The translations under genes were made by a program, and so were the position numbers. Below, in pieces: positions 487-19,306 of a DNA stretch of 54,181 bases. The notes under the pieces are model-generated. The model had not been told where the DNA came from and ran no database searches. It was given only the letters and a program-made list of their open reading frames with translations. The stretch covers positions 1-54,181 of the forward strand of contig JACPIU010000025.1 in assembly GCA_016187935.1 (NCBI GenBank), read 5' to 3'. The stretch is from Bdellovibrio sp. (lineage in GTDB: Bacteria > Bdellovibrionota > Bacteriovoracia > Bacteriovoracales > Bacteriovoracaceae). The stretch's first letter is position 1. Each line of letters starts with the position of its first letter.

Positions 487-604
487 ACTAGCAGTGTTTA
501 TCGGTCTTCACGCAATTACGAATTTCATCTTATCTCACTTCATTTCACTTTATTTCACGAATTTGTCCGGGCTGGACGGGCTGGGCCGGGCAGACACGTC
601 GTAG

Positions 605-1747: not shown

Positions 1748-1779
1748 GCTTTTTTAAAATCGTGCCACTGTTGTAAAAT

Positions 1780-1893: not shown

Positions 1894-1896
1894 TTT

Positions 1897-2505: not shown

Positions 2506-2506
2506 A

Positions 2507-3406: not shown

Positions 3407-3466
3407 GCTGTCCTCATTATCAAAAAACTAACTTACATGCTCGTTTTTTGTTTTATCAACGTTCAA

Positions 3467-3949
3467 TTAGGTCACTACTGAAACACCCTCTTCATATCCT
3501 AGCTTCGCTTGGAGCCATCTTATCAGTTCATGCCCCTTACCGAGCAAACAAACATCCAAAGGAGATTTGCCAAACAGTAGCTGACTTGGGGAGCAGAGCC
3601 ATTGCACTGTTTGCGCCTTCAATCTTTTAATTTGCTCTTTTGTCAATTCATGAAGCGCGATATGCCGAGTTTCAACGGTATCATATTTAAAAAGTTCGAA
3701 CGCCAAATCAGTAGCAAAAACAATTTGTAGAATTCCATTCTTTAGGTCTTTAAGGAGCTTGAGATCAATTTCGTCTTTGTATAGCAAAGGCCTTGAAAGA
3801 TTACATCTCACAGAGAACTCGACTTTCTCAAGGCCAGTTACGGAGAAAAATATTTTTGGACAGAATTTGGTCTTATCTGTAAGGGAAAGTATCCCTAAAA
3901 AATTAGGGAATTCACCACCCGGGCCTTTTTTAAGCTTCGAAGATGACAT
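3467..3949 (-). CDS. Protein with DUF2384 (MbcA/ParS/Xre antitoxin)-like C-terminus
   Basis: In this 160-residue protein, residues 117-155 (WLCSPSQLLFG, SPLDV, then LIRWLQAKLG) match the pattern of the toxin-binding domain of MbcA/ParS/Xre antitoxins: a WL, a P near the turn, sPl, and a helix ending near a glycine. The first 100 residues are not recognised, and I see no classical helix-turn-helix there. It is the first gene of the minus-strand operon and is preceded by two tandem 11-bp repeats, so it may be the regulator of the operon. A partner RES-type toxin is not visible in the window. Family assignment rests on a short stretch. Confidence 0.5.
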   Translation of the reverse strand: MSSSKLKKGPGGEFPNFLGILSLTDKTKFCPKIFFSVTGLEKVEFSVRCNLSRPLLYKDEIDLKLLKDLKNGILQIVFATDLAFELFKYDTVETRHIALHELTKEQIKRLKAQTVQWLCSPSQLLFGKSPLDVCLLGKGHELIRWLQAKLGYEEGVSVVT

Positions 3950-4470
3950 ATGTTAACTTAGGTGAACCATTAATATTGTATGTAAACGAAGTGTAAACCA
4001 AGTGTAGAAGCCTAGGCAATTAAAACTGTACTTTGGATTTTCGCTTGAAGTCGCTTATTGTCAAACATGGCTCGCCCCACAATAACTCTGGCCTTTTATC
4101 TTTATCACCTCAGCCAAATAAAACTACGGGTGGGGTTATAATAAAACAATACAGCCGTTAAGTTGACGCGATATTGAGCAAGACAACCAACTCCTACATT
4201 CTGTAGGGTCCCTTTCAGACTTTTTTAGTCGCCTTTAGGGGAAAGTTCTGTAGAGATTAGCAATAAAAATTTCTCCTTTCTTATCGAAATAATGCCATTA
4301 ACATTTAGTAAGTTATGCATAATTAATTTTCCAGATGAAAGACGATAATTCCATCTTTTGCCTCAAGTAAGCGACTTACGAAGACGATAATTAGACACCA
4401 CGAACACTACTACCATAGGTATTGCCAATTTCGAGACTTTCAATGCTGAAATAGGTAAGGGCAGGATTCA
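3950..4470. other. Divergent intergenic region between DprA operon and Zorya
   Basis: This 521-bp AT-rich stretch separates the two divergent defence operons and must hold both promoters. The clear structure in it is a tandem 11-bp repeat at 3982-4003. A small palindrome (GACT, five T, AGTC) lies near 4217-4230. No convincing ORF, tRNA or sigma-70 promoter could be picked with confidence. Confidence 0.6.
3982..4003. promoter_or_regulatory. Tandem 11-bp repeat, putative operator
   Basis: GTAAACGAAGT is followed directly by GTAAACCAAGT, one difference in 11 bp. The repeats begin 33 bp upstream of the start of the DUF2384-like gene and their 11-bp period places them on the same face of the helix, as expected for a dimeric or cooperative regulator. 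The bound protein is unknown; the DUF2384-like protein is a natural candidate. Confidence 0.45.
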
Positions 4471-6477
4471 ATGCAGACGCTCGCTGATAACTTTTCACAA
4501 TATCTCCATCTGTGGCTTGTCGGAGGATTCCTTGCGTTATCAATTATCGCATTCATTGCTCGTTTTTGGGTACCCGCAGTACAACTCGGTTTTCGTATCC
4601 GCAGAGTGGTGACAGCTTTGAAGTCAATCCGAAAGGCCATTACCAATAGCATTTCAAACCTCGATCAAATTGCCGAAGTAATGGCCCAAGACGATACACT
4701 CAAACACTTATGGTCTGAATATTGCGAAACTCTGCATGCACAGAAAACAGTAAATGAGATGGGGCAAGAGAAAGTAAGTCAATATCGTTCTACGGCCATG
4801 GCAGAAGTTTTTTTCACAGAACATTCGATTGTGAGTACACCACTAAAAACTGAGTTCTATAAACATCTTCCAGGAATATTAACGGGACTTGGAATTATTG
4901 GCACCTTTAGTGGTCTCATTAATGGCCTCAATGTCTTTGCCTCTGGTGATGCAAGCATGGCACAGCAAAATTTAAAATTTTTGATCGGAAGTGTGGGGCA
5001 TGCTTTTTATGTTTCGGCTGCAGCAATTACATTGGCAATGTTATGTACCTGGATAGAAAAATTTGTTGTAACTGCAAGATGCAGGGAAGTTGAGCATCTT
5101 TGCCATCTAATTGATAGTTTCTTTGATGCTGGTGCAGGAGAGGAATATTTAGAAAGATTAGTAAAGGCATCCGAAAGCTCAGCTGTTCACTCAGCACACA
5201 TGAAGGATGCACTTGTCTCAGATTTAAAAAAAATACTCTCAGATTTGAGCACCAAGGAACTTGAAGCTGCATCTGTTCAAACGCAGATGATGACGGGCGC
5301 ACTTGTGGAATCTTTCACAACAAGTATTCAAGCACCAATGGCAGAAATTTCAGCAGCAGTTAATCACGTGGGGTCAAACCAGGGAGACGCGGTCACACGA
5401 CTTCTTACCGATGTCCTACTCAATTTTTCAACACAAATGAAGGATATGTTTGGCGGGCAAATGACTGGGCTCAATTCGGCGCTCCAAGAATCAATTAAGG
5501 CCATGCAGTCAACAGCTTCGCGTTTTGATGATCTTGCAGGAAATTTACAAGGTGCTGGAAAGAGTGCTGCCGATACTATGGCAAGTCAACTTGAGGAGGC
5601 AATGAAAAGCGCCCAAGCGAGACAGGAACTTATGAATAAACAGATGGGAGATTTTGTTGAAGCGATTCGCGGTCTAGTCTCAAATTCACAGTCTGAAACA
5701 AGCAAAAAAACACAAGAAGTTTTAAATGCTTTGAGCGAGAAGGTTGCCGAGACTGTTAAAGTTCTTCAGATACAAGCGGAAGGAGCAAGTCAACGGCAAG
5801 AAAGCCGTGAAGTTAAGATTGCCGAAAGTACGCAGGGGGCGTTAAAGGATAGCTCACAACTTCTTCAAACTCTTACAACTGAAGTTGCTGCTGCTTCTCG
5901 GGCCATGAATAGTAGCGTATCTCAATTGACTAACATAACCCAGGAATCAATTCAGAAACTCAATTCTGGAGCAGAGACACTTTATTTAGCTGCTTCAGAG
6001 TTTTCAAAGGCCGGCGATGGTGTGAGCGGAACACTAAAGACTGCTGCACAGGTTACAAGCAAAATGGAAACAGCTTCAGGAAATTTGGCATCAGCATCCA
6101 GTGGTGTTCAAGGTGTGTTTGAAGACTATAAGAAAACTCGAGAGACATTTGCGTTGATGGTGAGTGATCTTAAAAATACGGTCGAGAATGCAAAAAGGGA
6201 AGCATTATTAACTACTCAATTAGTCGCAAAACTTCAGGGAGGAGCAGAAGCCCTTGGGGCTGCTGAGAAAGCTGCAGAGGAATATTTAAAAGGTGTCACG
6301 GCAGTAGTTGCTCAAGTACATCAGGATTTTGCCGCGAATTTAAGTCGTACTCTTACTGAAGGGAATGGAAAGTTTCATAGCGAAGTTGCCCAAGCCGCAA
6401 ATTTTCTTTCAGGAGCGATACAACAATTGGGAGATACGCTAGATTCGGTCCAAATAAAAATGAATAAGCATGAATAG
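4471..6477 (+). CDS. zorA: Zorya type I membrane motor protein ZorA
   Basis: This 668-residue protein is a MotA/TolQ/ExbB-type proton-channel subunit with a very long cytoplasmic tail. A hydrophobic helix at about 14-36 is followed by a cytoplasmic part, then two channel helices at about 133-152 (PGILTGLGIIGTFSGL) and 170-198 (GHAFYVSAAAITLAML). From about residue 210 to the end the sequence is almost entirely alpha-helical, rich in Ala, Ser, Gln and Glu, as expected for the tail that projects into the cytoplasm and is required for Zorya activity. The known E. coli ZorA is of similar size (about 730 residues). It is the first gene of the Zorya operon and its end overlaps zorB by eight bases. 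Other MotA-like families lack such a tail and do not sit with zorBCD. Confidence 0.92.
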   Translation: MQTLADNFSQYLHLWLVGGFLALSIIAFIARFWVPAVQLGFRIRRVVTALKSIRKAITNSISNLDQIAEVMAQDDTLKHLWSEYCETLHAQKTVNEMGQEKVSQYRSTAMAEVFFTEHSIVSTPLKTEFYKHLPGILTGLGIIGTFSGLINGLNVFASGDASMAQQNLKFLIGSVGHAFYVSAAAITLAMLCTWIEKFVVTARCREVEHLCHLIDSFFDAGAGEEYLERLVKASESSAVHSAHMKDALVSDLKKILSDLSTKELEAASVQTQMMTGALVESFTTSIQAPMAEISAAVNHVGSNQGDAVTRLLTDVLLNFSTQMKDMFGGQMTGLNSALQESIKAMQSTASRFDDLAGNLQGAGKSAADTMASQLEEAMKSAQARQELMNKQMGDFVEAIRGLVSNSQSETSKKTQEVLNALSEKVAETVKVLQIQAEGASQRQESREVKIAESTQGALKDSSQLLQTLTTEVAAASRAMNSSVSQLTNITQESIQKLNSGAETLYLAASEFSKAGDGVSGTLKTAAQVTSKMETASGNLASASSGVQGVFEDYKKTRETFALMVSDLKNTVENAKREALLTTQLVAKLQGGAEALGAAEKAAEEYLKGVTAVVAQVHQDFAANLSRTLTEGNGKFHSEVAQAANFLSGAIQQLGDTLDSVQIKMNKHE

Positions 6478-7231
6478 TTTAAGGGTATCAAGTCGTAAAC
6501 GGATACAGGATGATGGAGAAAAGCCATTCTGGATTTCATTTTCTGATCTAATGACAGCTTTGATGGTTCTTTTTTTGGTGGCCACAACAGTTGCATTGAT
6601 GGCTGCCACAAAAAAAGTTAATGAGGTAGAATTGGCAAAAAATAATCGTGATCGTGATATTAAATTATTGATGGAACAAATTGAAGGTTCCATGCAACGC
6701 TTCCCGGGAATCAAAGTGCGGGGACATTCTGTAGACTTTGGGGAGCGTGCAAATTTTAAGTTAAATAAGCACGATTTAACCGAGGAGCAGTCACAACGCA
6801 TCCGTGATTTTATTCCAGTGGTGTTGACAGCCGCGCGATCAGAGTTGGGGAAAAAATGGATCAAGAGAGTCATTGTTGAGGGGTTTGCCTCTAAGGAAGG
6901 TTCATATATTCATAATCTAAATTTGAGCATGCAACGCTCAGAAAGAGTTCTTTGCGTTCTGCTCTCTTCCTACAGTAGGGCCCAAAATACAGAGTTGAGT
7001 GAGGATGACAGGTTAACAATTCGGGAATTATTTTTAGTAGGTGGATCTTCTTTTAATTCATTAAGAGAAAGCGATGAAGCAAGTAGAAGAATTGAACTGA
7101 AGCTTGAATTTCTGGACAGCGATGAACAAAGGGGTGAAATACCGAGTATGCCTCTTGATAATGATCCGCAATGTCCACTTGACAAGTCAACAGTTAAGAA
7201 TATCCATAAGAAAAAGGAAAAACGGATGTGA
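6470..7231 (+). CDS. zorB: Zorya type I motor protein ZorB (MotB/OmpA-like)
   Basis: The 253-residue protein has one N-terminal membrane helix (about 23-46) containing Asp26 in FSDLMTALMV, the position of the proton-binding aspartate of MotB-type and ZorB proteins. The periplasmic part carries an OmpA/MotB-like peptidoglycan-binding domain, with VEGFASKEGS followed by LNLSMQRSERV at about residues 136-160. ZorA and ZorB together form a five-to-two proton-driven motor in the known systems; ZorB anchors it to the cell wall. The start at 6470 lies inside the end of zorA and the stop overlaps the GTG of zorC, so the three genes are translated as a unit. Confidence 0.92.
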   Translation: MNSLRVSSRKRIQDDGEKPFWISFSDLMTALMVLFLVATTVALMAATKKVNEVELAKNNRDRDIKLLMEQIEGSMQRFPGIKVRGHSVDFGERANFKLNKHDLTEEQSQRIRDFIPVVLTAARSELGKKWIKRVIVEGFASKEGSYIHNLNLSMQRSERVLCVLLSSYSRAQNTELSEDDRLTIRELFLVGGSSFNSLRESDEASRRIELKLEFLDSDEQRGEIPSMPLDNDPQCPLDKSTVKNIHKKKEKRM

Positions 7232-8946
7232 AAGAATTAGAGAAACTTTCACAAGAACTTAAGCTGGTCTCGGGGGAATTCCAGCAGCGATTTCAGATTG
7301 CTGAATCTCGTGAAATGTCTCAGGCGCTAAAGGAGCTTAGCAAGAGATATGATTCTGCTTCAGTTCCTCAGGACCTAGTCGAGAATGTATTACGCAAAAT
7401 ACGAAAGGGCCAGAGTCCATCAACATGGACTGAAATGAAGTACCTTTGTTTTGGTCTTACTCGTGCGCTCGAAGGTGAATCATGGGTGCTACTTGAAGAT
7501 AGCAAGGCATTTAACAGGGCCATGATTGCAATTCAAAATACAGGTGACAATCCCGCCTCCCTCAAGCGGTGCTATCAGGGGCTGTTATACAATTATTTTA
7601 TTTATCCAGGTGGCAGAGATTCAGCTCATGAAATTGGCCGGAAAAATTGGAATACTATCCGTTCATTTTTGCAACACAATTTAGATCGTGTCTTGGTAGT
7701 TAAGCCTGTTTCCGAGTGGCTTGAAGTACTTCGTGAACACAAGAATCTTTTAGAGAATGATCCGTGCAAGCGGTACGCTAAGGCATATCTCGTCGGAGAT
7801 ACTTCGGAATTAAAAAAAGTTTCCACGTTGCTGAACCTTCCTGAAAAATCCTGGGTGTGGGAGGCCGTCATTTTGTCCGGAGCAGATGTGCTGCTAGAAA
7901 AAAATGATGAGGAATACAAGAAAGGCCTTGATAGTTTTCTCGCTCTGTTGGGTGGAATTTCAAATCTAGTGATTCCAGAACAAGTAATTATTCGCGGTTT
8001 GGCAAAATTGATCATTCGTTATTCTGAGTGTGTTAATCAAGCGGTTCATGAACGACTGCGTGATTTATCTGTTAGTAAAATAGGCAATCCTTGGTTAAGA
8101 CGTGATGCTTGGCAAGGATATGTTTCTAATGAAAAAGCAAGGGAAATGGTTAACGGATGGCTCAAGAAACGTTTGATCACAGACTTCTTTGGTATTCTCA
8201 GCGATGGTGGTGATACTGACTCTCGCCGTTTAAAATTTTGGATGAAATTTGAACCTATGGTAACAGACCTTTGGATACTTTTATGTCCGTTTGCCATGGA
8301 TAAACGTGACAGTAATTTTAAAGAATTACGTAATCGTGCACGAGGAAGGCTTCTTAAGCTTAACACGATGACGGATCAAAACGCGTTCATAATGAAAATT
8401 GGTAAATATTATGTTGTGGAATTTGGGAAAGTTGGCCGTGCCTTTTTCTATGAGGAACGGCAACTGCCTTTTAGACTTGATGTTCCTGACGGTACTTCGA
8501 TTCATGAGGGTTATACAAAAGGTGGATTAAAATCGGACAATGGCCACAAAATGAGTCATATGCAAAAATGGGAGGATGATTTTCAATCTTGGCTTTGTCC
8601 TAAACTCAATTGGTGGCCGCCATCTTCCAAAATACAACAGTCACCAGTAATTTCCTCCAGGCCTGCATCACATAATGCATCTCCTGACCCTGTCCGAGCT
8701 TCTGAGGTGACGGCAGTATCAGACAAACTTTCTAGCCGTGCGAAGCGCAATATGAATGGATGGTTAGATACTGAATATGCTGAATTGTATGAATATGTCG
8801 AAAAGTTCAAATTAGCAATACGTGATATGCGACATCAGGGAGGAGTGGTCTGGGTGTTGACTAAAGATGAAAAATCCCCTGCTGGAGATTATCTAAAGCG
8901 GTGTGGATTTAAATTTAAGGAAAATAAAGGTTGGTGGAAAGAATGA
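7228..8946 (+). CDS. zorC: Zorya type I protein ZorC (EH-signature type)
   Basis: This 572-residue soluble protein follows zorB with a GTGA overlap, so GTG at 7228 is the start. Its length matches E. coli ZorC (about 560). ZorC proteins carry an EH-signature domain, bind DNA and are thought to be recruited with ZorD when the motor senses phage invasion. Identity here rests on position, length and general composition: an all-helical N-terminal half, then a compact tryptophan-rich C-terminal end (MRHQGGVVWVL, then GDYLKRCGF). I could not place the signature Glu and His with certainty by eye. A proline/serine-rich linker occurs at about 470-500. Confidence 0.85.
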   Translation: MKELEKLSQELKLVSGEFQQRFQIAESREMSQALKELSKRYDSASVPQDLVENVLRKIRKGQSPSTWTEMKYLCFGLTRALEGESWVLLEDSKAFNRAMIAIQNTGDNPASLKRCYQGLLYNYFIYPGGRDSAHEIGRKNWNTIRSFLQHNLDRVLVVKPVSEWLEVLREHKNLLENDPCKRYAKAYLVGDTSELKKVSTLLNLPEKSWVWEAVILSGADVLLEKNDEEYKKGLDSFLALLGGISNLVIPEQVIIRGLAKLIIRYSECVNQAVHERLRDLSVSKIGNPWLRRDAWQGYVSNEKAREMVNGWLKKRLITDFFGILSDGGDTDSRRLKFWMKFEPMVTDLWILLCPFAMDKRDSNFKELRNRARGRLLKLNTMTDQNAFIMKIGKYYVVEFGKVGRAFFYEERQLPFRLDVPDGTSIHEGYTKGGLKSDNGHKMSHMQKWEDDFQSWLCPKLNWWPPSSKIQQSPVISSRPASHNASPDPVRASEVTAVSDKLSSRAKRNMNGWLDTEYAELYEYVEKFKLAIRDMRHQGGVVWVLTKDEKSPAGDYLKRCGFKFKENKGWWKE

Positions 8947-9002
8947 ACCGACCAACAATGTGACTATTAATAGAGTGATCTTTCATAATATAAGGAATTA
9001 TC

Positions 9003-12000
9003 GTGAACAGAGGCAATACCAGAGCACCAAAATATTTTCGTGAAGGTATTCGTTATGATTTGCCTTCAGGGAATATCAATTCCACAGATCAGCTCCTCTC
9101 TCAACTTGTAGGAGAAGGAATTGCATCGTACGTGGAAAATGCTGTCCTAATTACTTGGCAAGATATCTATACACTATTTAAAAATGACTCATATGTAGAC
9201 AGCCTCTGTTTTTTGGCGCTCCCTGCTTTCACAAACCTTCGCCCCGTTCTCAATAGTTCACTCGCACTAAGCGATCCTGCATTTGCAGTTTCGCTTAGTG
9301 GATTTATCGACAGTGATGGCAAAAAAACGGCAGCGGACATTACCATTGTCGGTGGAATGCTAACCACTGCTGGAATAGACTTTCTCATGCCAGAAATGTG
9401 CTGGAAAACAGTTGAAGCAATAGCAGCATTTCATAATCGTACTTCAGTGGAAAGGTCTGCAATTTATAATCAAAAAGCTTGGTCCAATATTCGCAAGTGG
9501 GCAATTGAGGCCAGAGCTGAACTTTCGGATTATTTAAGAAATACCATTATTTTGACACCCGATAAACTCAAACTCATTTTAAGGCGATCAATTTTAGACA
9601 ATGAAAGTGTTATCGAAGTGACACCTACGTTCGAAGATGCTCCTGCTAATTGGCTGTATAATTTCGATAAATTTAATGAGGTTCAAGAGCGTTATGATAT
9701 TTTGAATGGGAAACAGCTTGTTATGATATATCCATCAGCGGAAACAATTATAGCCCTTAATGAAATCAAGAAAATGCCTGGGCGTAGAGTCGCCGGTAAT
9801 CGAGCAGAAGCATTCATTCGAAATCCATTTGCTATTCTTGGGCCCGCTGCCGAAAAAGTGCTTAGCCCTGAACAATTTGAAGAAGCTAGAGCAGATGCCG
9901 GCATCTTCTTTGCTCGCTTTACAGCAAAGGTTGAAACATCAGAGAATGGCATGCTTTCAGTCTCTCTATTGATAGCGGAAGTCATTAATGATCATTGGAC
10001 CACAGCTGAGTTGAGTTTTAAAAATGAGGATGATTTAGAGCGTTTTGTAACAAAGCTTTCATGCGCATTACGCGATGGGGCCCAAATGGTGTTTTGGGAT
10101 GGTTTTGATCTTGAGATTCTTGCTGATACTCCAGATCAGCATCAAGTTTTGAGCAAGGCTTTGAAGGCGTGGAAAACTTGGGACGGTATAACTCTTGCGG
10201 AAGTTCTTGATCTATCTCGTTACACGAATCGAATCAGTGAGATTGGCATTGAAAAAGCATATTATTCGCCTTTCATTGCCAAAAAAGAAGAAGGAGATGG
10301 CTGGTTTCCTGATACTGTAATTTTTGGTGTGCAATACACGCCACCGGGAGCTAGCGAACCTATTACTGTACAACTTGATGAAGAAAGACTGAGCGAACTA
10401 GATCGAAAGTGTAAAGAAGCAGAGAAAGCCGGTAGAAAAGATTTTATCTTTCCAGGTTTCGAAGAACCGATTCCAGTGGATGTAGCTAAAGATATTTGTA
10501 TTTCTCTTGGTGAAGCAGGTAAGGATGTCAAAAAGGGGAACTTTGATCCTACTAAAATCGCTGAGAAGCCAAGCAAAGTTAAAAGAAAAACCTTAATTAT
10601 AAAACCTAATATTGATAAGATCGACTACCTTGAAGTCCGGGGCCGTCTGGCGATGGTCTCAGGAACTGCTCCAAGGATTCCAAACTCTCTAAATCCACAA
10701 TTTAATCTTAAAGAGCACCAGAGAAGTGGGGTTGCCTGGCTTCAACATCTTTGGAGCCACTCACCGGCGGATTGTCGCGGAGCAGTCTTAGCCGATGATA
10801 TGGGCCTTGGAAAAACCATACAACTACTCTCTCTCATCGCTCGATGCTTTGAAGACGATGAAACGCTTAATCCTGTGTTAGTAGTGGCACCGGTTGCTCT
10901 TCTTGATAACTGGAAGGACGAAATTGAGAAATTCTTTGCTCCGGGAACACTTCGTGTTCTCAGGCTTTATGGAGATGAACTTGCTGAACGACGTGTATCT
11001 AAATCTGAACTTGAACAGGAACTGGCGCAAGCTAATATTACTCGTCTTTTGCGGAAAAATTGGGTTGGAAATGCTCAGGTCGTTCTCACCACCTATGAAA
11101 CTCTTCGTGATTTAGAATTTTCTTTGGCTGCTCAGCAATGGTCGATCATGATTTGTGATGAGGCTCAAAAAATTAAAAATCCAAACGCCATGATGACTAG
11201 GGCTGCAAAAAAACAAAACGCTCGGTTCAAGATTGCCTGTACTGGCACACCTGTAGAAAATTCTCTAGCTGATATCTGGTGTTTGTATGATTTTGTACAA
11301 CCTGGATTACTTGGTGCGCTGAATACTTTTGGGCGAACCTACCGTAGACCGATAGAGGCCAAAACAGAAGAGGAGAAAGAAAAAGTCGAGGAGCTTCGTG
11401 CCATTATCCAACCACAAATTTTGAGAAGAACAAAAGAGGAAGTTGCAAAAGACCTTCCACGGAAAGTTATGGTTGGAATTGATTCCCATTCTGACTTAGG
11501 TATTCGAGGCCTAGCCAGTTGTGTTAGTCTTCCTATGACAGACAGGCAAAGAGGTCTCTATGCCGGGGCAATTAGCCACTTTAAGAATACTGATGAAAAT
11601 TCTAAGAAAATAAAAAATCATCTTGGATTATTACAACATTTACGTCGTCTTTGCATTGATCCACGAGCGGTTGGTCAGATCGCTACAGATTTTGATTCTG
11701 TCACAGAGCTTGAGAAGCATTCGCCACGATTGAAGTGGCTTTTTGAGGCCCTCGCTGTGATTCGTAATCGAAAGGAAAAGGCAATTATATTTTGTGAGAT
11801 GAAAGATGTTCAGCGACTTCTTCAACGGTGTATTTCATACCGTTTTGGTATTGTGCCAGATTTTGTGAACGGAGATGTTTCTGCTGATTCAAAGCACGCC
11901 GGAAATCGAAAAGTTCTAATCAGTTCTTTCCAGAAAAAAGATGGTTTTAATGTCATTTTGCTTTCGCCGCTGGCGGCTGGTTTTGGTCTTAATATTCAGG

Positions 12001-12719
12001 CGGCAAATCACGTCATACATTTCAGCAGAAGTTGGAATCCCGCCAAAGAAGATCAAGCGACTGATAGGGCATATAGAATTGGTCAGGAAAAAGAGGTCTT
12101 TGTCTATTGTCCAGTGATCGTAGCAAAAGAATTTACAACTTTTGATGCAAAGCTCGACAAGCTGTTACGATACAAACGCGAGCTATCGCGTGATATGCTC
12201 AATGGAACTGGCGATGTGGCGCCTGCCGATTTTGTTGACGTTGAAGGAATTGGCGGCGAACCAATTATCGAGGATGGTCCAATCGAAAGCAAAGATCTTG
12301 ATGGATTAACAGGGGAAGCACTTGAAGCTCTCTGTGTTCTCCTTTGGGGCAAAATGGGCTTTTCTTATACATATTGGACTAAAGGAATACAAAAATTTGG
12401 CGATGGCGGAGTTGATGTGGTTGCCACAAATGGTGTAGACGGGGAACTTCTTCAATGCAAAAGTTCCACTCGTGATGGAAAAGAACTTGGGTGGGATGCT
12501 ATTAAAGAGGTAGTTGGGGGCAAAGCTGCCTATAGCGTGAAGCATCCTGGTGTTGAATTTGTACTGGTTGCCGTTACAAACCAGTATTTTAACGGAACTG
12601 CCAAATCTCAAGCTGAGTTAAATAATGTTAAAATTATAGAAAGACCTCTTTTGGAAAAGATGCTTTTAAAACACAAAGTGATGCGAATGGAATTAGAGAA
12701 AATGCTCCTTGGTGTATAA
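9003..12719 (+). CDS. zorD: Zorya type I effector ZorD (SNF2 ATPase with Mrr-like nuclease)
   Basis: The 1238-residue protein has an N-terminal region of about 540 residues, a SNF2-type helicase core and a C-terminal nuclease-like domain. Helicase motifs seen are Walker A in DDMGLGKT (about 597), DEAQ (about 718), CTGTPVENSLADIW (about 744) and the C-terminal lobe SPLAAGFGLNIQAA followed by DRAYRIGQ (about 985-1030). Near 1130-1155, GDGGVDVVA and then LLQCKSS give the D...QxK arrangement of Mrr-like restriction endonucleases. In known Zorya systems ZorD degrades invading DNA. It is longer than the E. coli protein (about 1090). The start is a GTG at 9003 with AAGGA before it, 56 bp after zorC. 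The gene belongs to the zorABCD operon. Confidence 0.92.
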   Translation: MNRGNTRAPKYFREGIRYDLPSGNINSTDQLLSQLVGEGIASYVENAVLITWQDIYTLFKNDSYVDSLCFLALPAFTNLRPVLNSSLALSDPAFAVSLSGFIDSDGKKTAADITIVGGMLTTAGIDFLMPEMCWKTVEAIAAFHNRTSVERSAIYNQKAWSNIRKWAIEARAELSDYLRNTIILTPDKLKLILRRSILDNESVIEVTPTFEDAPANWLYNFDKFNEVQERYDILNGKQLVMIYPSAETIIALNEIKKMPGRRVAGNRAEAFIRNPFAILGPAAEKVLSPEQFEEARADAGIFFARFTAKVETSENGMLSVSLLIAEVINDHWTTAELSFKNEDDLERFVTKLSCALRDGAQMVFWDGFDLEILADTPDQHQVLSKALKAWKTWDGITLAEVLDLSRYTNRISEIGIEKAYYSPFIAKKEEGDGWFPDTVIFGVQYTPPGASEPITVQLDEERLSELDRKCKEAEKAGRKDFIFPGFEEPIPVDVAKDICISLGEAGKDVKKGNFDPTKIAEKPSKVKRKTLIIKPNIDKIDYLEVRGRLAMVSGTAPRIPNSLNPQFNLKEHQRSGVAWLQHLWSHSPADCRGAVLADDMGLGKTIQLLSLIARCFEDDETLNPVLVVAPVALLDNWKDEIEKFFAPGTLRVLRLYGDELAERRVSKSELEQELAQANITRLLRKNWVGNAQVVLTTYETLRDLEFSLAAQQWSIMICDEAQKIKNPNAMMTRAAKKQNARFKIACTGTPVENSLADIWCLYDFVQPGLLGALNTFGRTYRRPIEAKTEEEKEKVEELRAIIQPQILRRTKEEVAKDLPRKVMVGIDSHSDLGIRGLASCVSLPMTDRQRGLYAGAISHFKNTDENSKKIKNHLGLLQHLRRLCIDPRAVGQIATDFDSVTELEKHSPRLKWLFEALAVIRNRKEKAIIFCEMKDVQRLLQRCISYRFGIVPDFVNGDVSADSKHAGNRKVLISSFQKKDGFNVILLSPLAAGFGLNIQAANHVIHFSRSWNPAKEDQATDRAYRIGQEKEVFVYCPVIVAKEFTTFDAKLDKLLRYKRELSRDMLNGTGDVAPADFVDVEGIGGEPIIEDGPIESKDLDGLTGEALEALCVLLWGKMGFSYTYWTKGIQKFGDGGVDVVATNGVDGELLQCKSSTRDGKELGWDAIKEVVGGKAAYSVKHPGVEFVLVAVTNQYFNGTAKSQAELNNVKIIERPLLEKMLLKHKVMRMELEKMLLGV

Positions 12720-12867
12720 TTGGTGTTAACCAGTCCTAAAATATTCAAAAAAAATTCAAATATCCGCTTGTAATCATTGGTTTTTGTCAATTAATCAAAA
12801 ATTCTCGGTGATATTATTAGTTCTCAGGATACTAATATAAGTGAGACCACTTTTTATATGAGGAAGT

Positions 12868-13380
12868 ATGGGAAATTCGATTGATCCACAGTTATTGGAG
12901 GCCATTCAGAGAAATAAGAATTTCATTCGGCGTCTGTGCTCTCTCTCCGAGTTTGTGAGGGAGAGGAGTAAGGAACTCTTACAAGAAGTCATGCTGAACT
13001 TGGTGCAATCAAATGCCTCGTTTAGGGGAAAGAAAATTGAGAGTACCGATGCTTGGGTGAAACGAGTTGCGATGAATACGGCCGCCACCTGGCGGCGCGA
13101 TGAGGCCAACGAAATTAAGACTGAAGATATAGAGTTGCACACAAATACAATTTCAACTCCATGTCAGGGCGAAAACTATACGGAGATGTGTTTGATGATC
13201 CGTTACATGTTGCGGGAATTTAGTGCACGAGAATGTCTAATTATGAAAATGCACATTATTGGTGAGACCCACCAAGAAATCGGTGAGGTTGTCGGAATGA
13301 CACCTGCAAGTGTCGCCAATATGGTTGTGGAGCTTAAAAAAAGAATCAATGAATACGGCAATAGAGGTTTACATGAATGA
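12868..13380 (+). CDS. ECF-type RNA polymerase sigma factor
   Basis: This 170-residue protein has the two conserved parts of an extracytoplasmic-function sigma factor. Region 2 includes AWVKRVAMNTAATWRRDEANE (residues about 62-81), and region 4 near the C-terminus contains the helix-turn-helix LREFSARECLIMKMH...THQEIGEVVGMTPASVAN. It directs RNA polymerase to selected promoters, probably of the element itself. GAGGAAGT precedes the ATG. The stop overlaps the start of the next gene (ATGA), which encodes a membrane protein and is a likely anti-sigma factor. The gene lies 148 bp after zorD; whether it controls the Zorya operon or the transfer genes cannot be told from sequence. Confidence 0.85.
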   Translation: MGNSIDPQLLEAIQRNKNFIRRLCSLSEFVRERSKELLQEVMLNLVQSNASFRGKKIESTDAWVKRVAMNTAATWRRDEANEIKTEDIELHTNTISTPCQGENYTEMCLMIRYMLREFSARECLIMKMHIIGETHQEIGEVVGMTPASVANMVVELKKRINEYGNRGLHE

Positions 13381-13933
13381 TTTAAAAAATGTTGATGACA
13401 TCATTACTAAGTGGAACAAAGAACCTGACGACGAATTTGCGTCGGTGCCTGATAACTTCGAGCAGGTGATTTCTGATTATAAGAAGGACCGGAAATCGGG
13501 TAAGCGCATAGCAATAACTCGGTTTATCTGCCTAGCATTGATGGACTTAGGGACGCTTCCTTTTTCCAAAAATCCACTTGGGTTTGCGTGCATGGTGATC
13601 TTGTTTTTTTGTATTCTGTATCTGTTGTTCAGATACATCCACTTTAATAAAAAACTGGAGGCCCAAGATTATTCTGAAGTCGTGCTTGATTTCATTGAGC
13701 ATCGAAGAAAAATTGCGATTGAGGAATATAAATCTTTGAAGATCATGAGGTATTTCGTTTATCCGGCCATGTTTGGCATAAACATTAGTCATGCCATCTC
13801 AAATGGCGTTGGTCTTGAGGGGAAATGGTATGTGGCCCAGATTATTTTTAGTTTGGTTATCACTGTAATTGTGACACTTAACCTGGAAAAGGCAATCAAG
13901 GGTGCTGATAAAAAAGTTCATTCTTTAAGGTAA
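13373..13933 (+). CDS. Four-helix membrane protein, candidate anti-sigma factor
   Basis: Starting at the ATG at 13373, which overlaps the sigma stop by eight bases, the protein has 186 residues. A soluble acidic N-terminus (1-45) is followed by two pairs of hydrophobic helices (about 49-65 and 70-88; 127-146 and 153-171) with a charged loop between them. Anti-sigma factors of ECF sigma factors often have an N-terminal cytoplasmic sigma-binding part and membrane helices, and are co-translated with the sigma gene. No ZAS motif (HxxxCxxC) is present, so membership of the common zinc anti-sigma group is excluded. Function is inferred from position only. Confidence 0.55.
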   Translation: MNDLKNVDDIITKWNKEPDDEFASVPDNFEQVISDYKKDRKSGKRIAITRFICLALMDLGTLPFSKNPLGFACMVILFFCILYLLFRYIHFNKKLEAQDYSEVVLDFIEHRRKIAIEEYKSLKIMRYFVYPAMFGINISHAISNGVGLEGKWYVAQIIFSLVITVIVTLNLEKAIKGADKKVHSLR

Positions 13934-13959
13934 CAATTTAATTTCTAGTCCAACTTTTA

Positions 13960-13976
13960 TTAAGGCAATGCCTTAA
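13960..13976 (+). promoter_or_regulatory. Short hairpin before the coupling-protein gene
   Basis: TTAAGGC and its inverse GCCTTAA are separated by three bases and end four bases before the ribosome binding site (AGGGGG) of the next gene. A translational or transcriptional control role is possible; a chance palindrome cannot be excluded. Confidence 0.35.
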
Positions 13977-13985
13977 GGGGGTTCT

Positions 13986-15425
13986 ATGTCTCAAAATTCA
14001 AATAAGTCAGGCGGTTCGGACGGTGGATTCGATGTTGTTTCGCCTCTTGCAGACGTCATCAATGAAATTATTAAGATTCTAATAGAACTGCTGACAGTGG
14101 TTCTTGGAATTATTATTGCTTGGCTGGGTGTGCAAATAAAAAGAAAGTATTACGGCATCTATAATTCAAATCCAGTCACCCAGAAACATCTTAACTGCAA
14201 AAAAGTTGCCGTTGAGGAGGAGTATTTAGGCTACTCCGCAAGCAACAAGCGAAAGTTCTATCTGCAAGAACTCAATACCAAGAAGCACACAGCCGTCATC
14301 GGCTCTACCGGATCAGGCAAGACCGTATGCCTGCGAGTTTTAATTGATCATGCCCTGAGTATGGGTAAGCCTGTGATCTATTTTGATCCTAAGGCCAGCC
14401 TCGAATCGGTCGAGGTATTTCGGAAAATGTGTGAGAGGAGTGGCAAAAAACTTTATCTCTTCACAGATATTGCCGAGGATGCCACGGCCTTTAATCCTCT
14501 CCTTGATGGCTCATTGGACGATATTAGCGACCGAATCATCAATGCCTTGGATTGGTCGGAGCCTTTCTATAAGAATGAATCTATTCAAGCTCTGGATGAT
14601 GTATTGCAATGCCTGGCAGAAAGTCAGACCGTCATTACTCTCAAAAATATCCTGCTTGAGTTAGAAAAGCACAGTAACAAGAAAAATATCAAAGGCCTGG
14701 TCAATCAACTTGGCAAGGTCTCACGAAGTCCTTACGGCACGCTTCTCAATAATGAGTCAAAAGATGTCCTTACCTTCAACCGGCTTCGACTTAAAGATGC
14801 TTGCATCTACATTGGCATTTCATCTATGGGCCACAGCTCAAGTGGCCAAATCTTAAATAAAATATTCTTTGGAGGCCTGCTCACTCATGCCAAAGACTCG
14901 CTGATCGGTAAGGTGCCTGGGCTGCGCAATCCTGAGGCCAGACCTATGTCCATAATCTTTGATGAATTATCCAGCACGATCCACGAAGGATTTATTGATC
15001 TGCAAAACAAGTGCCGTCAGGCAGGGATGGAGATTACTTACGCCACCCAAGGGCCTTCGGATATTGATCGCATCTCGCCTATTTTAACCGCTCAGATTTT
15101 TGAAAATACCAACAACCTCTTTGTCTTTAATCAGATCGTCCCTGCTCATACGGAGTTCTTTGCTCGAACCTTTGGCACCGTCACATCTGATAAAAAGACT
15201 CATGTCATGGAAGATAATCGCAAGGGAGATGCAGGGTCAGTGCGTGAGGCGGAGGAATTTATGGTGCACGGTAATATCTTACGCAGTCTCCGAGTAGGCC
15301 AGTGCGTTCTCTTGCAACGCACACCCAAAAGGATAGACCTACTCAATATTAGAAATTGGGAGGGCCATATGACGTTAGAGCGTGGTGCAAGCAAACAAGG
15401 CAATGGTGCCCAGGCAATTTTTTGA
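13986..15425 (+). CDS. VirD4/TraD-like coupling ATPase
   Basis: The 479-residue protein starts with a short Gly/Ser-rich segment and one hydrophobic stretch (about 22-47), then an ATPase domain. Walker A is GSTGSGKTV (about 105-113) and Walker B is SIIFDELSS (about 322-330), followed by RQAGMEITYATQGPSDID, a pattern seen in TraD/TraG/VirD4 coupling proteins that select DNA for conjugative transfer. It is somewhat shorter than conjugative TraD and has few membrane helices. It is followed, 14 bp later, by a replication-relaxation-like gene, a pairing common on mobile elements. No relaxase or mating-pore genes are seen in the element, so it would need help from elsewhere for transfer, or acts in another way. 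Confidence 0.8.
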   Translation: MSQNSNKSGGSDGGFDVVSPLADVINEIIKILIELLTVVLGIIIAWLGVQIKRKYYGIYNSNPVTQKHLNCKKVAVEEEYLGYSASNKRKFYLQELNTKKHTAVIGSTGSGKTVCLRVLIDHALSMGKPVIYFDPKASLESVEVFRKMCERSGKKLYLFTDIAEDATAFNPLLDGSLDDISDRIINALDWSEPFYKNESIQALDDVLQCLAESQTVITLKNILLELEKHSNKKNIKGLVNQLGKVSRSPYGTLLNNESKDVLTFNRLRLKDACIYIGISSMGHSSSGQILNKIFFGGLLTHAKDSLIGKVPGLRNPEARPMSIIFDELSSTIHEGFIDLQNKCRQAGMEITYATQGPSDIDRISPILTAQIFENTNNLFVFNQIVPAHTEFFARTFGTVTSDKKTHVMEDNRKGDAGSVREAEEFMVHGNILRSLRVGQCVLLQRTPKRIDLLNIRNWEGHMTLERGASKQGNGAQAIF

Positions 15426-15439
15426 GCAAGGAGGTGAAT

Positions 15440-16171
15440 TTGGAATACCTAGAGAAAATAAAACCGGCCTACGTTGATTTATTAATGCCGCTTAAGAGAT
15501 GGAAAATTTTGGACGTGAAGGCGTTAAAAGACGCGGCAGAGTATTCAGGAAGTTTCTCAGGCTTCTACAAAATTGTGGCCAAGCTTGAAAAAAATCTTCT
15601 GCTTGATAGCTTCACGAACTCATGGAGCAATGAAAAATTCGTTTACCTCTCCCCTAATGGTCTGAAGGCCTTGGGCGAAAATGAACGAGGCCTCGGCATC
15701 AATCGAGATACAAGGTTCCACGATTCCATTGTCTCTAAGGTCGCCAGATTTTTTGCAGGGTACCCATTTGTGAAGGGCGTCTACTTAGATTTTCAAATCA
15801 AGGATGCCTTTCCATTATTGGAACGTGTGCCAGATTGTCTCTTAGTAGGAGCATTAAAAAGTCCATTCAAGATGGCCATTGAGGTGGAGCTTACTCAAAA
15901 AAGTCAGGAGCGTGTCACACAAATTTTAAAGACCTACTCCGATTCAAAGGTGGTGAACCAAATTCTTTACATTACTGACAAGCAATCAATTTTCGATGCC
16001 TACAAAGAATATTTCAACCAAAAAGGGGGTGAACTGATCAAAGAGAAGTTTTTATTTTTGCTGGCCAAGGATTTATCCAAAGGGAGGTGTGATTTAAAAA
16101 ATGAACCAGTTTATTTCAAGGGGCGCATGACAACTTTAAGCGAAATTTTTGCAGTTTCAATGCAGAGGTAA
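15440..16171 (+). CDS. Replication-relaxation-like protein
   Basis: The start chosen is TTG at 15440, because AAGGAGG (15428-15434) lies five bases before it; the protein is then 243 residues. The N-terminal 70 residues look like a winged-helix domain (LKRWKILDVKALKDAAEY... and a KLEKNLLL wing). The rest has the pattern of the replication-relaxation family: VPDCLLV, then AIEVELTQKSQERVTQILKTY and a later hydrophobic strand. Members are found on plasmids and integrative elements next to TraD-type coupling proteins. A role in nicking or regulating transfer is suggested by the family name rather than shown. Three GGTAATG repeats start at its very end. Confidence 0.6.
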   Translation: MEYLEKIKPAYVDLLMPLKRWKILDVKALKDAAEYSGSFSGFYKIVAKLEKNLLLDSFTNSWSNEKFVYLSPNGLKALGENERGLGINRDTRFHDSIVSKVARFFAGYPFVKGVYLDFQIKDAFPLLERVPDCLLVGALKSPFKMAIEVELTQKSQERVTQILKTYSDSKVVNQILYITDKQSIFDAYKEYFNQKGGELIKEKFLFLLAKDLSKGRCDLKNEPVYFKGRMTTLSEIFAVSMQR

Positions 16172-16195
16172 TGCTTGGGTAATGCCGGGGTAATG
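16167..16195 (+). repeat. Three GGTAATG repeats with 11-bp period
   Basis: GGTAATG occurs at 16167, 16178 and 16189, exactly 11 bp apart, so the copies lie on one face of the helix. The first overlaps the stop of the replication-relaxation-like gene. Iteron-like repeats of this kind are typical of replication, transfer or excisionase binding sites. Confidence 0.6.
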
Positions 16196-16251
16196 GGGTT
16201 GAGAGCGATTTTAAAAGAGAGAACAACTATTTAAAACTGTTCGCATAAGAG

Positions 16252-16314
16252 CGCCCTGGTATTTGACCTCCCTCTCTCCACGTAGTTTCGAGAGTGAGGT
16301 CAAATACCAGGGCG
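16252..16314 (+). other. Long perfect-arm hairpin, candidate oriT or terminator
   Basis: Arms CGCCCTGGTATTTGACCTC (16252-16270) and its exact inverse (16296-16314) are 19 bp and perfect. Beyond one mismatch the stem continues for five more base pairs (16272-16276 with 16290-16294), leaving a 13-base loop. No run of T follows, so a plain intrinsic terminator is unlikely. Next to the iteron-like repeats and the coupling gene it could be a transfer or replication origin; this is an inference. Confidence 0.6.
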
Positions 16315-16345
16315 GAGATTGCGATTAAAAAAGGGAGATTAAAAG

Positions 16346-16702
16346 ATGGGAAACAAAAAAAGATTATTAATGGAGCAGGAATTTAGAACAAAGGGGAGAA
16401 TTCAGAAGGAGGCCGTTTGCAAAGTTCAGATTCATATAAACGAGGACAGTGGTATGCATGAAGTCGTGCTGACGGAACCAGAAGATAAAAATTATCGAGG
16501 CATCAGTACGACGAATTACTTTGAAGTCTTTGCGACTGACGTCAAAAATAAATTCTTGCAACAAGTTAGTTCCGACAAAATCCAGTGGTTTGATTTACTC
16601 AAGTGGAAAATTCCCGGTCTCGGGGAACAGCTCATTGCTGTAAAACTCGATTGGAAAGATGGCCAATACATGGACCCACAGTGGCGAGGAGTTGTCGCAT
16701 GA
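16346..16702 (+). CDS. 118-residue protein of unknown function
   Basis: The ATG at 16346 follows AAGGGAG. The protein is soluble, mixed in charge, with a beta-rich middle (CKVQIHINEDSGMHEVVL and STTNYFEVFATDV) and several tryptophans near the end. I do not recognise a family. Its last codon overlaps the start of the excisionase-like gene (ATGA), so the two are co-translated, which suggests a role in maintenance or excision of the element. It lies 31 bp after the long hairpin. Confidence 0.65.
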   Translation: MGNKKRLLMEQEFRTKGRIQKEAVCKVQIHINEDSGMHEVVLTEPEDKNYRGISTTNYFEVFATDVKNKFLQQVSSDKIQWFDLLKWKIPGLGEQLIAVKLDWKDGQYMDPQWRGVVA

Positions 16703-16899
16703 TTGAACGGCAAGAAGGAAGGCCGCTTCTGAACTGTCGGGAGCTGGCGCAAAAATTCAATGTCCCGGTAAATACCGTTTATTACTGGGTAAGTAAAAAA
16801 GAGATTCCGTACATCAAGGTCGGCAAGCACAATCGATTCAATTACCAAGAGGTAATGGAGTTTTTTAAAAAGCAGACCGTGAAGTGGAATGTTAGGTAG
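16699..16899 (+). CDS. Small excisionase-like helix-turn-helix protein (first)
   Basis: From the ATG at 16699, which overlaps the previous stop, the protein has 66 residues. ELAQKFNVPVNTVYYWVSKKEIPYIKVGKH is the MerR/Xis-type winged helix seen in excisionases and small element-borne DNA-binding proteins. It probably binds near the att site or promoters of the element and favours excision together with the integrase. A second protein of the same type follows 12 bp downstream. Confidence 0.75.
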   Translation: MIERQEGRPLLNCRELAQKFNVPVNTVYYWVSKKEIPYIKVGKHNRFNYQEVMEFFKKQTVKWNVR

Positions 16900-16911
16900 T
16901 TAGGAGGTCGG

Positions 16912-17160
16912 ATGATAAATCGGATCGACGCCAGTTACAAAGCTATACCGCCTCAGTACAATGCCTTGGGGGATAACACCCCCAGGCTCTTTTACAGCTT
17001 AATATGGGGTATAGATGAAGTTTGTAGTTTTACGCACTACTCTCGCGGAACAATTTACAATCTCGTAAGCCGAGGTGAGATTCCATTCTGCAAGCGTGGA
17101 CGTAAGAGAAGGCTGGTATTCATTCCAAGTGACGTGATTTCTTGGTTCAAAGGAGAATGA
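16912..17160 (+). CDS. Small excisionase-like helix-turn-helix protein (second)
   Basis: The 82-residue protein has the same winged-helix pattern as the gene before it: GIDEVCSFTHYSRGTIYNLVSRGEIPFCKRGRKRRLVFIPSDVISWF. An AGGAGGT precedes the ATG. Its 3' end carries AAAGGAG, the ribosome binding site of the integrase gene, so the pair is coupled. Two adjacent excisionase-like proteins may have divided tasks, for example one controlling excision and the other transcription. Confidence 0.75.
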   Translation: MINRIDASYKAIPPQYNALGDNTPRLFYSLIWGIDEVCSFTHYSRGTIYNLVSRGEIPFCKRGRKRRLVFIPSDVISWFKGE

Positions 17161-17162
17161 AT

Positions 17163-18398
17163 ATGAGTCGTAAAAACTACAAAAAAATTAAAGGCGTCCC
17201 GGGAATTTATCTTCACGCTGTCACTGGAAAATACTGTGCCGAAAAGAAAATTAACGGCAAGTTTCACAGTGCCAGCTTCGTCTCACTTTATGAGGCCAAG
17301 CAGTGGAGGAAAAATTTTAACGGGACAAACTATCAAGAAGATTCAAAAGATGGTGATTTTTCCACCTTGGCGGAAGTTTGGGGAGCGATGCAAAGGTATC
17401 ACTTTCCAAGTCTAGCGACCTCGACCAAAGCAATTTGGGTCAGAAGGTACTCGCTCTTAAGAGCACTAGAACATCTGCCAATGAATAGAATCACCCCCAC
17501 TCGAATCTCAGAGTGGGTTCAGCATTGGGTGGAACATTTCAGTTCCGAAGACTATGAAAGCTCAGGACGTGGACGGGCCGGAAGATGCAACCTCAACAAC
17601 GAACTCAATATGTTTGTGACCATTTTCAACTGGTACAAAGAAAGTGAGTATTTCGAAAAAGAGGCCATGCAACTCACCAGTCCGGTTAAAAAGAAGCATC
17701 GAAAACTTGGGTTTGTTAAACCTGTTCCTGACAAGAAAAGACAAATCAACGTCCAAGATGCCTTTTTGTTCTTTGAGTTTTTAAGGCCGCTCTACCGCGA
17801 TCTGGCCATGATGCAATTTTATACCGCCGGGAGGGTGGGAGAAGTTGCAGGGCTTCAGTGGAGCAATATCGACCTTAAAAATAAAAGGCTCCTCATCAAA
17901 CACACTTGTATCTGGGATTCTGGTAATAAAATGTTTGTAGAGCTAAAGCCCTTTCCGAAGAACCGTGAGCCGCGACCAGTCTTTATCACTGACGAGATCA
18001 TGGAAGTTCTTAAACACCGTCAGGCCTTCAAGCTTCCTAGCAACGACTATGTTTTCCATGTCGAGGGGCAACCACTTAACTACTGCACCATTCAGGTTCA
18101 TTACCGTGAAGGTCAGAGAAAAAGCGGAGTACCTTATACAGGAACTCATATCCTACGGCATGGAATGGCAAAGCTCGCTCGCCAAGTTGGAGGTGGACTC
18201 GATGCTGTCTTGGCCATGACTGGACACAAAGACCTGAAACTGGCCGATCACTATTCAAAATCTACCGAAGACGATCAAAAGCATTTTTCTGAGAAGATCA
18301 TGGAGCATATTCGTCGGCTCAAGCAGATGAACACTCCCGAGCTAGATTTTGAGAACGTGGTTAGTCTAAAACGTGTCAAGAATGGTACAAATGATTAG
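17163..18398 (+). CDS. Tyrosine recombinase (integrase)
   Basis: Starting at the ATG at 17163, six bases after AAAGGAGA, the protein has 411 residues. The N-terminal part contains a short arm-binding-like domain and a core-binding domain; the catalytic domain has the first Arg in AGRVGEVAGLQW, HILRHGMA, then GHKDLKLADHY with the nucleophilic Tyr. These are the R, H-x-x-R, H and Y residues of phage-type integrases. It lies 82 bp from the right att core at the start of mutM and most likely inserted the element there. Earlier in-frame ATGs are too near the ribosome binding site. Confidence 0.9.
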   Translation: MSRKNYKKIKGVPGIYLHAVTGKYCAEKKINGKFHSASFVSLYEAKQWRKNFNGTNYQEDSKDGDFSTLAEVWGAMQRYHFPSLATSTKAIWVRRYSLLRALEHLPMNRITPTRISEWVQHWVEHFSSEDYESSGRGRAGRCNLNNELNMFVTIFNWYKESEYFEKEAMQLTSPVKKKHRKLGFVKPVPDKKRQINVQDAFLFFEFLRPLYRDLAMMQFYTAGRVGEVAGLQWSNIDLKNKRLLIKHTCIWDSGNKMFVELKPFPKNREPRPVFITDEIMEVLKHRQAFKLPSNDYVFHVEGQPLNYCTIQVHYREGQRKSGVPYTGTHILRHGMAKLARQVGGGLDAVLAMTGHKDLKLADHYSKSTEDDQKHFSEKIMEHIRRLKQMNTPELDFENVVSLKRVKNGTND

Positions 18399-18414
18399 AA
18401 TTTGCTAAAAAGTA

Positions 18415-18432
18415 CGGGCTGGGACGGGCTGG
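18415..18432 (+). repeat. Right-end CGGGCTGG repeats
   Basis: CGGGCTGG occurs at 18415-18422 and 18425-18432 in the same orientation as the two copies at the left end (568-575, 577-584). Paired copies at both ends, inside the core repeats, fit arm sites of the recombinase. Confidence 0.5.
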
Positions 18433-18480
18433 AGCAATTTGGCCCGTTTCAGCTCAATAATATTAACGAGATAAGTGCCC

Positions 18481-18498
18481 AATGCCCGAACTACCCGA
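18481..18498 (+). repeat. attR-like core repeat at mutM start
   Basis: This 18-bp copy of the core contains the ATG and first five codons of mutM. Integration therefore keeps the mutM protein intact but replaces everything upstream of its start with element DNA. Confidence 0.8.
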
Positions 18499-19306
18499 AG
18501 TAGAAACCATCCGCCAGCAACTGGTCACGTCTTTGCCCCTTAAGATTGAGGGCGTGGAATTTTCGCGTGTGGCGGAATCCATCATCAAAAAAAGCGATAG
18601 AAAAATTGATTTGGCGGGGAAAAAGATTTTGCAAATTCGTCGCGTGGGGAAATGGTTGGAGATGGTGCTTGATAGTGATGAGCGCATCCTTTCTCATTTG
18701 GGCATGAGTGGCTCGTGGCGTCTGTGGCAGAAGGTGCAAAATGAAAAGCATGCCCACGTTCTTATTCATGGAATACATCTGGAGGATGGACCGGTAATCT
18801 GGGCCTATGTGGACCCAAGGCGTTTTGGTAAAATGTATTTCATGTCAGGCGAGAAGGCCGAGCAGTTTAAATCTAAGTTGGGGATTGATGTCAGCTCGAT
18901 AGAATTTACTGTCGATTATGTTTGGCAAACCTTGAGAAAATATCCCGCACGGGCGATCAAGGCCTTTTTGCTGGATCAAAAATATTTTGCGGGGGTGGGA
19001 AATTATATCGCCTGTGAGATTTGTGCCCATGCTCGCATCCGACCTACTCGCAGGGTCAAATCACTCACCTTGGATGAAGTCAAAAAAATTCATGCGGCAA
19101 CGGGAATCGTCATCGCAGGCCAACTCCCCAAGGGCGGTCTCACCTTTCAAGGCGGATATCGAGATGCTTTTGGTGAGAAAGGCCAAGGGCTTGCTAACTT
19201 AGTGGTTTTTCACCAGAAAGTTTGTGGCCTCTGTCACCGGGGTAAAATCAAGAAAATCGTTTTGGCGCAAAGGGGAACTTTCTACTGTCCCAACTGCCAA
19301 AAATGA
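18482..19306 (+). CDS. mutM: Formamidopyrimidine-DNA glycosylase
   Basis: The 274-residue protein starts MPELPEVETIR, where Pro1 (after Met removal) is the catalytic nucleophile and Glu2 the second catalytic residue of Fpg. LSHLGMSGSW and DPRRFGKMYF follow, and the C-terminus ends in a zinc finger with CGLCHRGKIKK and CPNC. It removes 8-oxoguanine and formamidopyrimidines from DNA and cuts the strand. The ATG lies in the right att core of the element, so the promoter must come from element DNA; only a weak ribosome binding site (GAGATAAG) is visible. Expression could change when the element excises. Confidence 0.95.
   Translation: MPELPEVETIRQQLVTSLPLKIEGVEFSRVAESIIKKSDRKIDLAGKKILQIRRVGKWLEMVLDSDERILSHLGMSGSWRLWQKVQNEKHAHVLIHGIHLEDGPVIWAYVDPRRFGKMYFMSGEKAEQFKSKLGIDVSSIEFTVDYVWQTLRKYPARAIKAFLLDQKYFAGVGNYIACEICAHARIRPTRRVKSLTLDEVKKIHAATGIVIAGQLPKGGLTFQGGYRDAFGEKGQGLANLVVFHQKVCGLCHRGKIKKIVLAQRGTFYCPNCQK

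Follow-up and report, generated by a model that had tools for sequence, protein, structure and literature searches.

The window analysed here is the whole 54,181-nt stretch of Bdellovibrio sp. contig JACPIU010000025.1, and its first part is likely an integrated element of about 18 kb (429–18498) that, judged from its sequence, ends at an 18-bp direct repeat, AATGCCCGAACTACCCGA. The left copy, attL, occupies 429–446 and the right copy, attR (18481–18498), sits at the start codon of fpg (18482–19306); 0.02 matches of this kind would be expected by chance, and the same 21-bp sequence as at attL ends a contig of a sister genome. The insertion is at the 5′ end of this DNA repair gene (also named mutM) and keeps its reading frame. 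As defence cargo, the element carries ShosT (1897–2505) and the DprA-like ShosA (2507–3406) on the reverse strand (1897–3406 in all; PADLOC 2.7e-24 and 3.5e-83), and the Zorya type I genes ZorA, ZorB, ZorC and ZorD on the forward strand (4471–12719; PADLOC E 1e-91 to 0). Genes for a sigma-70-like protein (12868–13380) and for a 207-aa protein of no known family (13310–13933), possible transfer regulators, precede that of a 479-aa TraD/VirD4-like coupling protein (T4CP; 13986–15425, forward strand), which matches T4SS-DNA_transf and TraG-D_C above the Pfam cut-offs and TIGR03743 SXT_TraD at 3.7e-30, below the curated cut-off. A 243-aa protein with a TTG start follows (15440–16171, likewise forward), and beyond the site described below come, all on the forward strand, a 118-aa protein (16346–16702) with no match in Pfam, NCBIfam or PHROGs, an HTH_17 protein of excisionase/AlpA-like type (16699–16899; Pfam HTH_17 2.9e-11), a second excisionase-like HTH_17 protein (16912–17160; Pfam HTH_17 2e-10, TIGR01764 excise above cut-off) and a tyrosine recombinase, or integrase (17163–18398; Pfam Phage_integrase 4.2e-15).

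Between the 243-aa and 118-aa genes, three exact copies of GGTAATG (16167–16173, 16178–16184 and 16189–16195, forward strand) are spaced 11 and 11 bp from start to start, the first overlapping the TAA stop codon of the 243-aa gene (16169–16171). Even with up to 3 mismatches allowed, the three-copy pattern never arose in 100 shuffled versions of the window. A forward-strand hairpin (16252–16314) begins 56 bp beyond the third repeat, with arms of 25 nt each (16252–16276 and 16290–16314) that are 96% complementary (24 of 25 pairs, arranged as 19 pairs, one mismatch and 5 pairs); its core is TGACCTCCCTCTCTCCACGTAG with the inverted complement, and its 13-nt loop (16277–16289) carries a conserved AC. 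Within 300–18600 it is the only inverted repeat of at least 18 nt whose arms lie within 100 nt. Folded as single-stranded DNA, positions 16196–16340 reached −32.5 kcal/mol, where shuffled sequences gave −12.85 ± 2.42 (z −8.1), and the centroid structure also paired a short outer stem, TCGCA (16241–16245) with TGCGA (16320–16324). There is no T run 3′ of the hairpin, and no terminator-like site was flagged there. The sequence-only reading of this DNA, which had described three repeats exactly 11 bp apart, a stem of 19 perfect pairs plus five more and no following T run, was thus accurate on all three points. Among viral contigs the exact three-copy GGTAATG pattern has two matches; in the viral-contig record L172 (474–502), three exact copies 11 bp apart stand beside ATTACC-containing inverted repeats, an arrangement that may be unrelated or convergent.

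That reading had also placed the site next to a replication-relaxation-like gene, and profile match, hhalign and predicted fold now identify the neighbour more closely: the 243-aa protein is, on its sequence and modelled structure, a divergent MOBC-class relaxase with a winged HTH and a predicted PD-(D/E)XK domain. NCBIfam NF041423 MobC_subf ('MobC family replication-relaxation protein') matched at 18.7 bits (E 8.3e-4) with a curated cut-off of 200, which indicates a protein related to that subfamily and outside it; a Pfam scan returned no family at E 0.1, the replication-relaxation family included, and tblastn against the plasmid collection gave no match. Profile comparison by hhalign of the 243-aa family with the pAM373 relaxase gave a probability of 88% and E 3.2e-6 over 170 columns, aligning both domains and an E-x-E-L-T-x-K motif, and residues H94, D95, D132, E148, E150 and K154 are invariant in an alignment of 61 homologues. 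In the AlphaFold model (pLDDT 93), residues 1–80 resemble winged helices of MarR type, the best match having a Z of 10.4 and an rmsd of 1.7 across 72 residues, and the C-terminal domain, also well predicted when folded alone (pLDDT 92), has best fold matches that are mostly PD-(D/E)XK nucleases (Can2 Z 8.6, PaqCI 8.4, BsaWI 7.8 and the nickase N.BspD6I 7.5). The Z values of the nuclease domain are middling (6–8.6), and the PD-(D/E)XK reading is drawn from the uniformity of the match list and from the invariant D132, E148, E150 and K154 rather than from those values. The studied MOBC prototype, pAD1 TraX, likewise combines a winged HTH with a restriction-endonuclease active site, and it binds 5 direct repeats located 70–120 bp from nic (PMC12857230).

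Both the relaxase and the adjoining structure are widespread in relatives. Of 129 genomes from the class, 78 encode homologues of the 243-aa protein. The genome that holds the window (4.4 Mb) has four further clear copies of the relaxase gene plus a sixth, distant one, and after each of them comes a hairpin with an outer stem of different sequence but preserved pairing. At 74 distinct homologous loci the hairpin begins about 20–130 bp 3′ of the relaxase stop codon. For the 11 inner stem pairs across these loci, 798 of 814 cells (98%) hold a Watson-Crick pair, with G-T in 4 and A-C in 2, these being cells from related sequences and not counts of events. The identity of the inner pairs changes often (one pair is C-G at 31 loci, T-A at 24 and A-T at 19), and the covariation score was 0.628, compared with 0.208 in shuffles and at most 0.207 with slid partners. 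A longer outer stem is present in most relatives, 61 of the 74 loci scoring above all 20 shuffles; at the window locus it is reduced to 5 bp and is not significant against shuffles. Directly upstream of the hairpin, an 11-bp periodicity is found family-wide (lag 11, z 13.5; lag 22, z 8.9), and control windows near the relaxase gene start and downstream of the hairpin have no such peak. The repeat itself varies between elements, being GGTAATG in the window and TGNAACTGG-like in C6b, a paralogous element of the same genome, and this variation showed no correlation with winged-helix similarity beyond relatedness (partial rank correlation 0.06). Given no such coevolution signal, the proposed binding of the relaxase to the repeats rests on the analogy with TraX.

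We built a covariance model, R1, trained only on Bdellovibrionota hairpins and without any plasmid. In the window's own genome R1 found seven strong sites, six beside MOBC genes and one at the very end of a contig; both this search and a DNA search of the same genome matched only in such places, and a genome-wide repeat of the MITE or REP kind was rejected as a candidate. Across the phylum, matches at E 1e-6 or better occurred in 112 of the 290 genomes sampled. The sequence-only reading had suggested looking for the same structure beside replication-relaxation genes elsewhere and would have been refuted by its absence from related elements; the structure is indeed kept beside homologous relaxase genes across the phylum.

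It had likewise proposed a comparison with known oriT sequences, and here R1 matched Enterococcus and Streptococcus plasmid hairpins of MOBC oriT type at E values down to 1.6e-11 (LR962597; then pIN-3-1_04 at 4.3e-11, pER371 at 9.4e-10 and pTW9 at 2.5e-7); pAM373 itself was not among the matches, which comprised only its relatives. In pAM373, the DNA between the coupling protein and relaxase genes carries phased repeats and two inverted repeats, an outer one and an inner one that contains TGACCATTTTAGCGCAACGTGG. This region recurs in pTEF1, whose oriT region is described in the literature as a homologue of the pAD1 one (PMC3084688). The resemblance of the window to this Enterococcus faecalis type of oriT, served by TraX, covers phased short direct repeats followed by a long inverted repeat with outer and inner stems, an identically placed TGACC in the inner stem, a C(A/C)ACGT-type loop, and an adjacent winged-helix PD-(D/E)XK relaxase and VirD4-like coupling protein. 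Phased repeats precede the hairpin in pAM373, pTW9 and LR962597, at a spacing of 12 bp in pAM373 and of 11 bp in pTW9, in LR962597 (which has five) and in the window. LR962597 and related plasmids carry TGACCATTTTCTCTCAACGTAG, to which the window's TGACCTCCCTCTCTCCACGTAG is identical at 17 of 22 positions, and over the 15 positions after TGACC the mean number of matches was 6.6, compared with 4.2 ± 0.33 in shuffles. When the pAM373 region was the query, most relatives matched its hairpin part (from position 88) without matching its repeats; in pAM373 relatives as in Bdellovibrionota, the repeats are the variable part of the site and the hairpin is the conserved one. The two types also differ: the window site lies 3′ of the relaxase gene and not between the coupling protein and relaxase genes, its loop is shorter, the relaxases are only about 18% identical, and it resides on an integrated element of a Gram-negative phylum whereas the pAM373/pAD1 type resides on Enterococcus plasmids.

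A mobilizable element with its own coupling protein and a MOBC relaxase is a known combination (PMC5704250), and CloDF13 (coupling protein MobB, relaxase MobC) shares it with the window element; unlike the window, CloDF13 has no comparable hairpin by R1 or by an inverted-repeat scan, and we discarded it as a template for the site. Among the plasmids, the 2.7-kb Streptococcus plasmid pER371 (L160) and a 5.5-kb Enterococcus faecium plasmid (L162) carry a MOBC-type oriT hairpin although typed as non-mobilizable, and both may be mobilizable in trans.

Because the structure is kept beside relaxase genes, because R1 recovers plasmid hairpins and because the neighbouring gene encodes a MOBC-class relaxase, we are confident that window 16167–16324 is a MOBC-type origin of transfer (oriT) of an integrative mobilizable element and works by the mechanism proposed here, the phased repeats (16167–16195) being the candidate bind site. 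The computed basis for this comprises the relaxase sequence and predicted fold, the conserved architecture and its covariation, the link to relaxase genes, the cross-phylum similarity, the likely ends of the element and the lack of recognised secretion genes; binding, nicking with its position and strand, direction, helper use and actual transfer are what we infer. In outline, the integrase and the Xis-like proteins would excise the element, and the MOBC relaxase (15440–16171) would bind the 11-bp-phased repeats through its winged helix, as TraX binds its own. Its restriction-endonuclease-like domain would then nick one strand within or beside the hairpin core TGACC-N4-TCTCTC(C/A)ACGTAG, and the coupling protein (13986–15425) would pass that strand to the secretion channel of a co-resident conjugative element; the hairpin may act again in ending transfer. 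The excisionase-like proteins could also be what binds here, but the winged helix of the relaxase is the likelier candidate. From its position, the 118-aa protein may be an accessory protein. Small proteins of no known family are also encoded 3′ of the oriT at loci L011 (6327–6755) and L012 (7311–7730), and in C6b an SSB gene comes next after the post-oriT small protein, with a similar arrangement in a second paralogous element, C32; these post-oriT proteins are possible relaxosome accessory proteins.

The sequence-only reading had offered an oriT or a replication origin, and the oriT half of this stood, on the conservation, the R1 plasmid matches and the MOBC neighbour, while the other half gained no positive evidence. 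As a replication origin, the site would consist of iterons (the repeats) and a double- or single-strand origin (the hairpin), and rolling-circle replication of the excised circle would be started by the 243-aa protein. Repeats with a hairpin would suit an origin, relatives of the 243-aa protein are named 'replication-relaxation' proteins, and relaxase-driven rolling-circle replication of excised elements is known in other systems. We nevertheless consider this improbable: scans with Pfam and NCBIfam recognised no replication initiator domain near the site, the domain of the 243-aa protein is nuclease-like, and the site's closest relatives are transfer regions of plasmids, where they lie between the genes for coupling protein and relaxase; pAM373 has a separate RepA. 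Transfer and replication roles of one site can, however, coexist.

Still less probable, and to a similar degree, are an RNA element and a recombination site. A hairpin acting in the transcript, as a terminator or as a regulator of the downstream operon, would agree with the very stable fold and with its place between co-directional genes, but a terminator was rejected for the missing T run and terminator call, no Rfam family scored above its gathering score, and the near absence of G-T pairs from the inner stem (4 of 814 cells) is unlike evolving RNA helices and would fit a DNA site better than an RNA. Moreover, in pAM373 and in several complete genomes the hairpin is found upstream, not downstream, of the relaxase gene, and copies without a relaxase gene keep the DNA repeats. 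The search for known RNA families yielded only sub-threshold microRNA-precursor matches, which we took as generic matches to a long hairpin. The phased repeats could instead be arm-type or Xis sites, with the hairpin part of an attachment site, given the two HTH_17 excisionase-like genes and the integrase downstream and an 11-bp phase that suits cooperative DNA binding; yet the att repeats are elsewhere, at 429–446 and 18481–18498 (2 kb from the hairpin), for which reason an attachment site here was rejected, and the hairpin tracks the relaxase family and has similar counterparts on Enterococcus plasmids.

Under the oriT reading, the gene content defines the kind of element. C6b and C32 have VirB4-, VirB6-, VirB8- and VirB10-like genes, named from gene order and protein character rather than from a family scan, and models made from them found no such gene in the window, although very divergent channel genes could escape these models. 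Since it lacks VirB-like genes that C6b and C32 possess, the window element is predicted to be of the integrative mobilizable kind, encoding a coupling protein of its own and no recognised type IV secretion genes, while C6b and C32 look like conjugative elements that could help it. It corresponds to the iMOB of PMC11389934 (integrase, relaxase and oriT, no secretion genes recognised), and in the literature searched we found no earlier description of iMOB- or iOriT-type elements for Bdellovibrionota, which is not proof of their absence from it.

The hairpin also occurs without a relaxase gene. In 16 genomes with about 30 hairpin sites, 19 sites had a MOBC gene at a distance of up to 1 kb and 11 had none. 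Among these 11 are a 41-bit site in G104, a genome made up of a single contig, and a site in G050, a genome of 99% completeness without any MOBC match. A tyrosine recombinase gene was nearby at 13 of 15 loci with no MOBC gene in the available sequence (that of L108 ends just upstream); at three further loci (L167, L169 and L171) the search for an integrase gave no match. Orphan sites keep the 11-bp periodicity (lag-11 identity 0.381, compared with about 0.27 at most other lags), and some of them match, along the full site, oriTs that are linked to a relaxase gene in sister species: L125 and L064 are 91% identical over 233 bp, and L109 and L068 87% over 239 bp. Two loci have two hairpins each, L114 at 2042–2098 and 2439–2495 (0.4 kb apart) and L126 at 3981–4039 and 4798–4855 (0.8 kb); at both, the tandem oriT-like hairpins differ from each other, lie upstream of an integrase gene and have their own phased repeats, and these elements could perhaps use two relaxases. 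PADLOC returned no matches for ten larger proteins near orphan oriTs. Beside integrases, the orphan hairpins resemble the iOriT elements of PMC11389934, and we regard them as candidate oriT-only elements, with a divergent relaxase elsewhere on the element as another possibility.

On balance we favour a broader picture in which the conjugative and mobilizable elements of Bdellovibrionota genomes form a dense network and derive from a single ancient MOBC oriT design that Firmicutes plasmids share. This network would include oriT-only integrative elements, some with tandem oriTs, that copy bind repeats and hairpin and hitchhike on the relaxases of others. MOBC relaxases are a poorly understood class, and how they carry and rejoin the strand is an open question because a covalent DNA intermediate has never been observed (PMC12857230). 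The conserved oriT and a covariance model that spans phyla supply numerous natural variants with which bind and nick sites could be mapped, and searches of the R1 type could locate oriT sites in genomes, including those of elements without a relaxase. For the bacteria themselves, the oriT points to a route by which Zorya and ShosTA defence genes could pass from one Bdellovibrionota cell to another.
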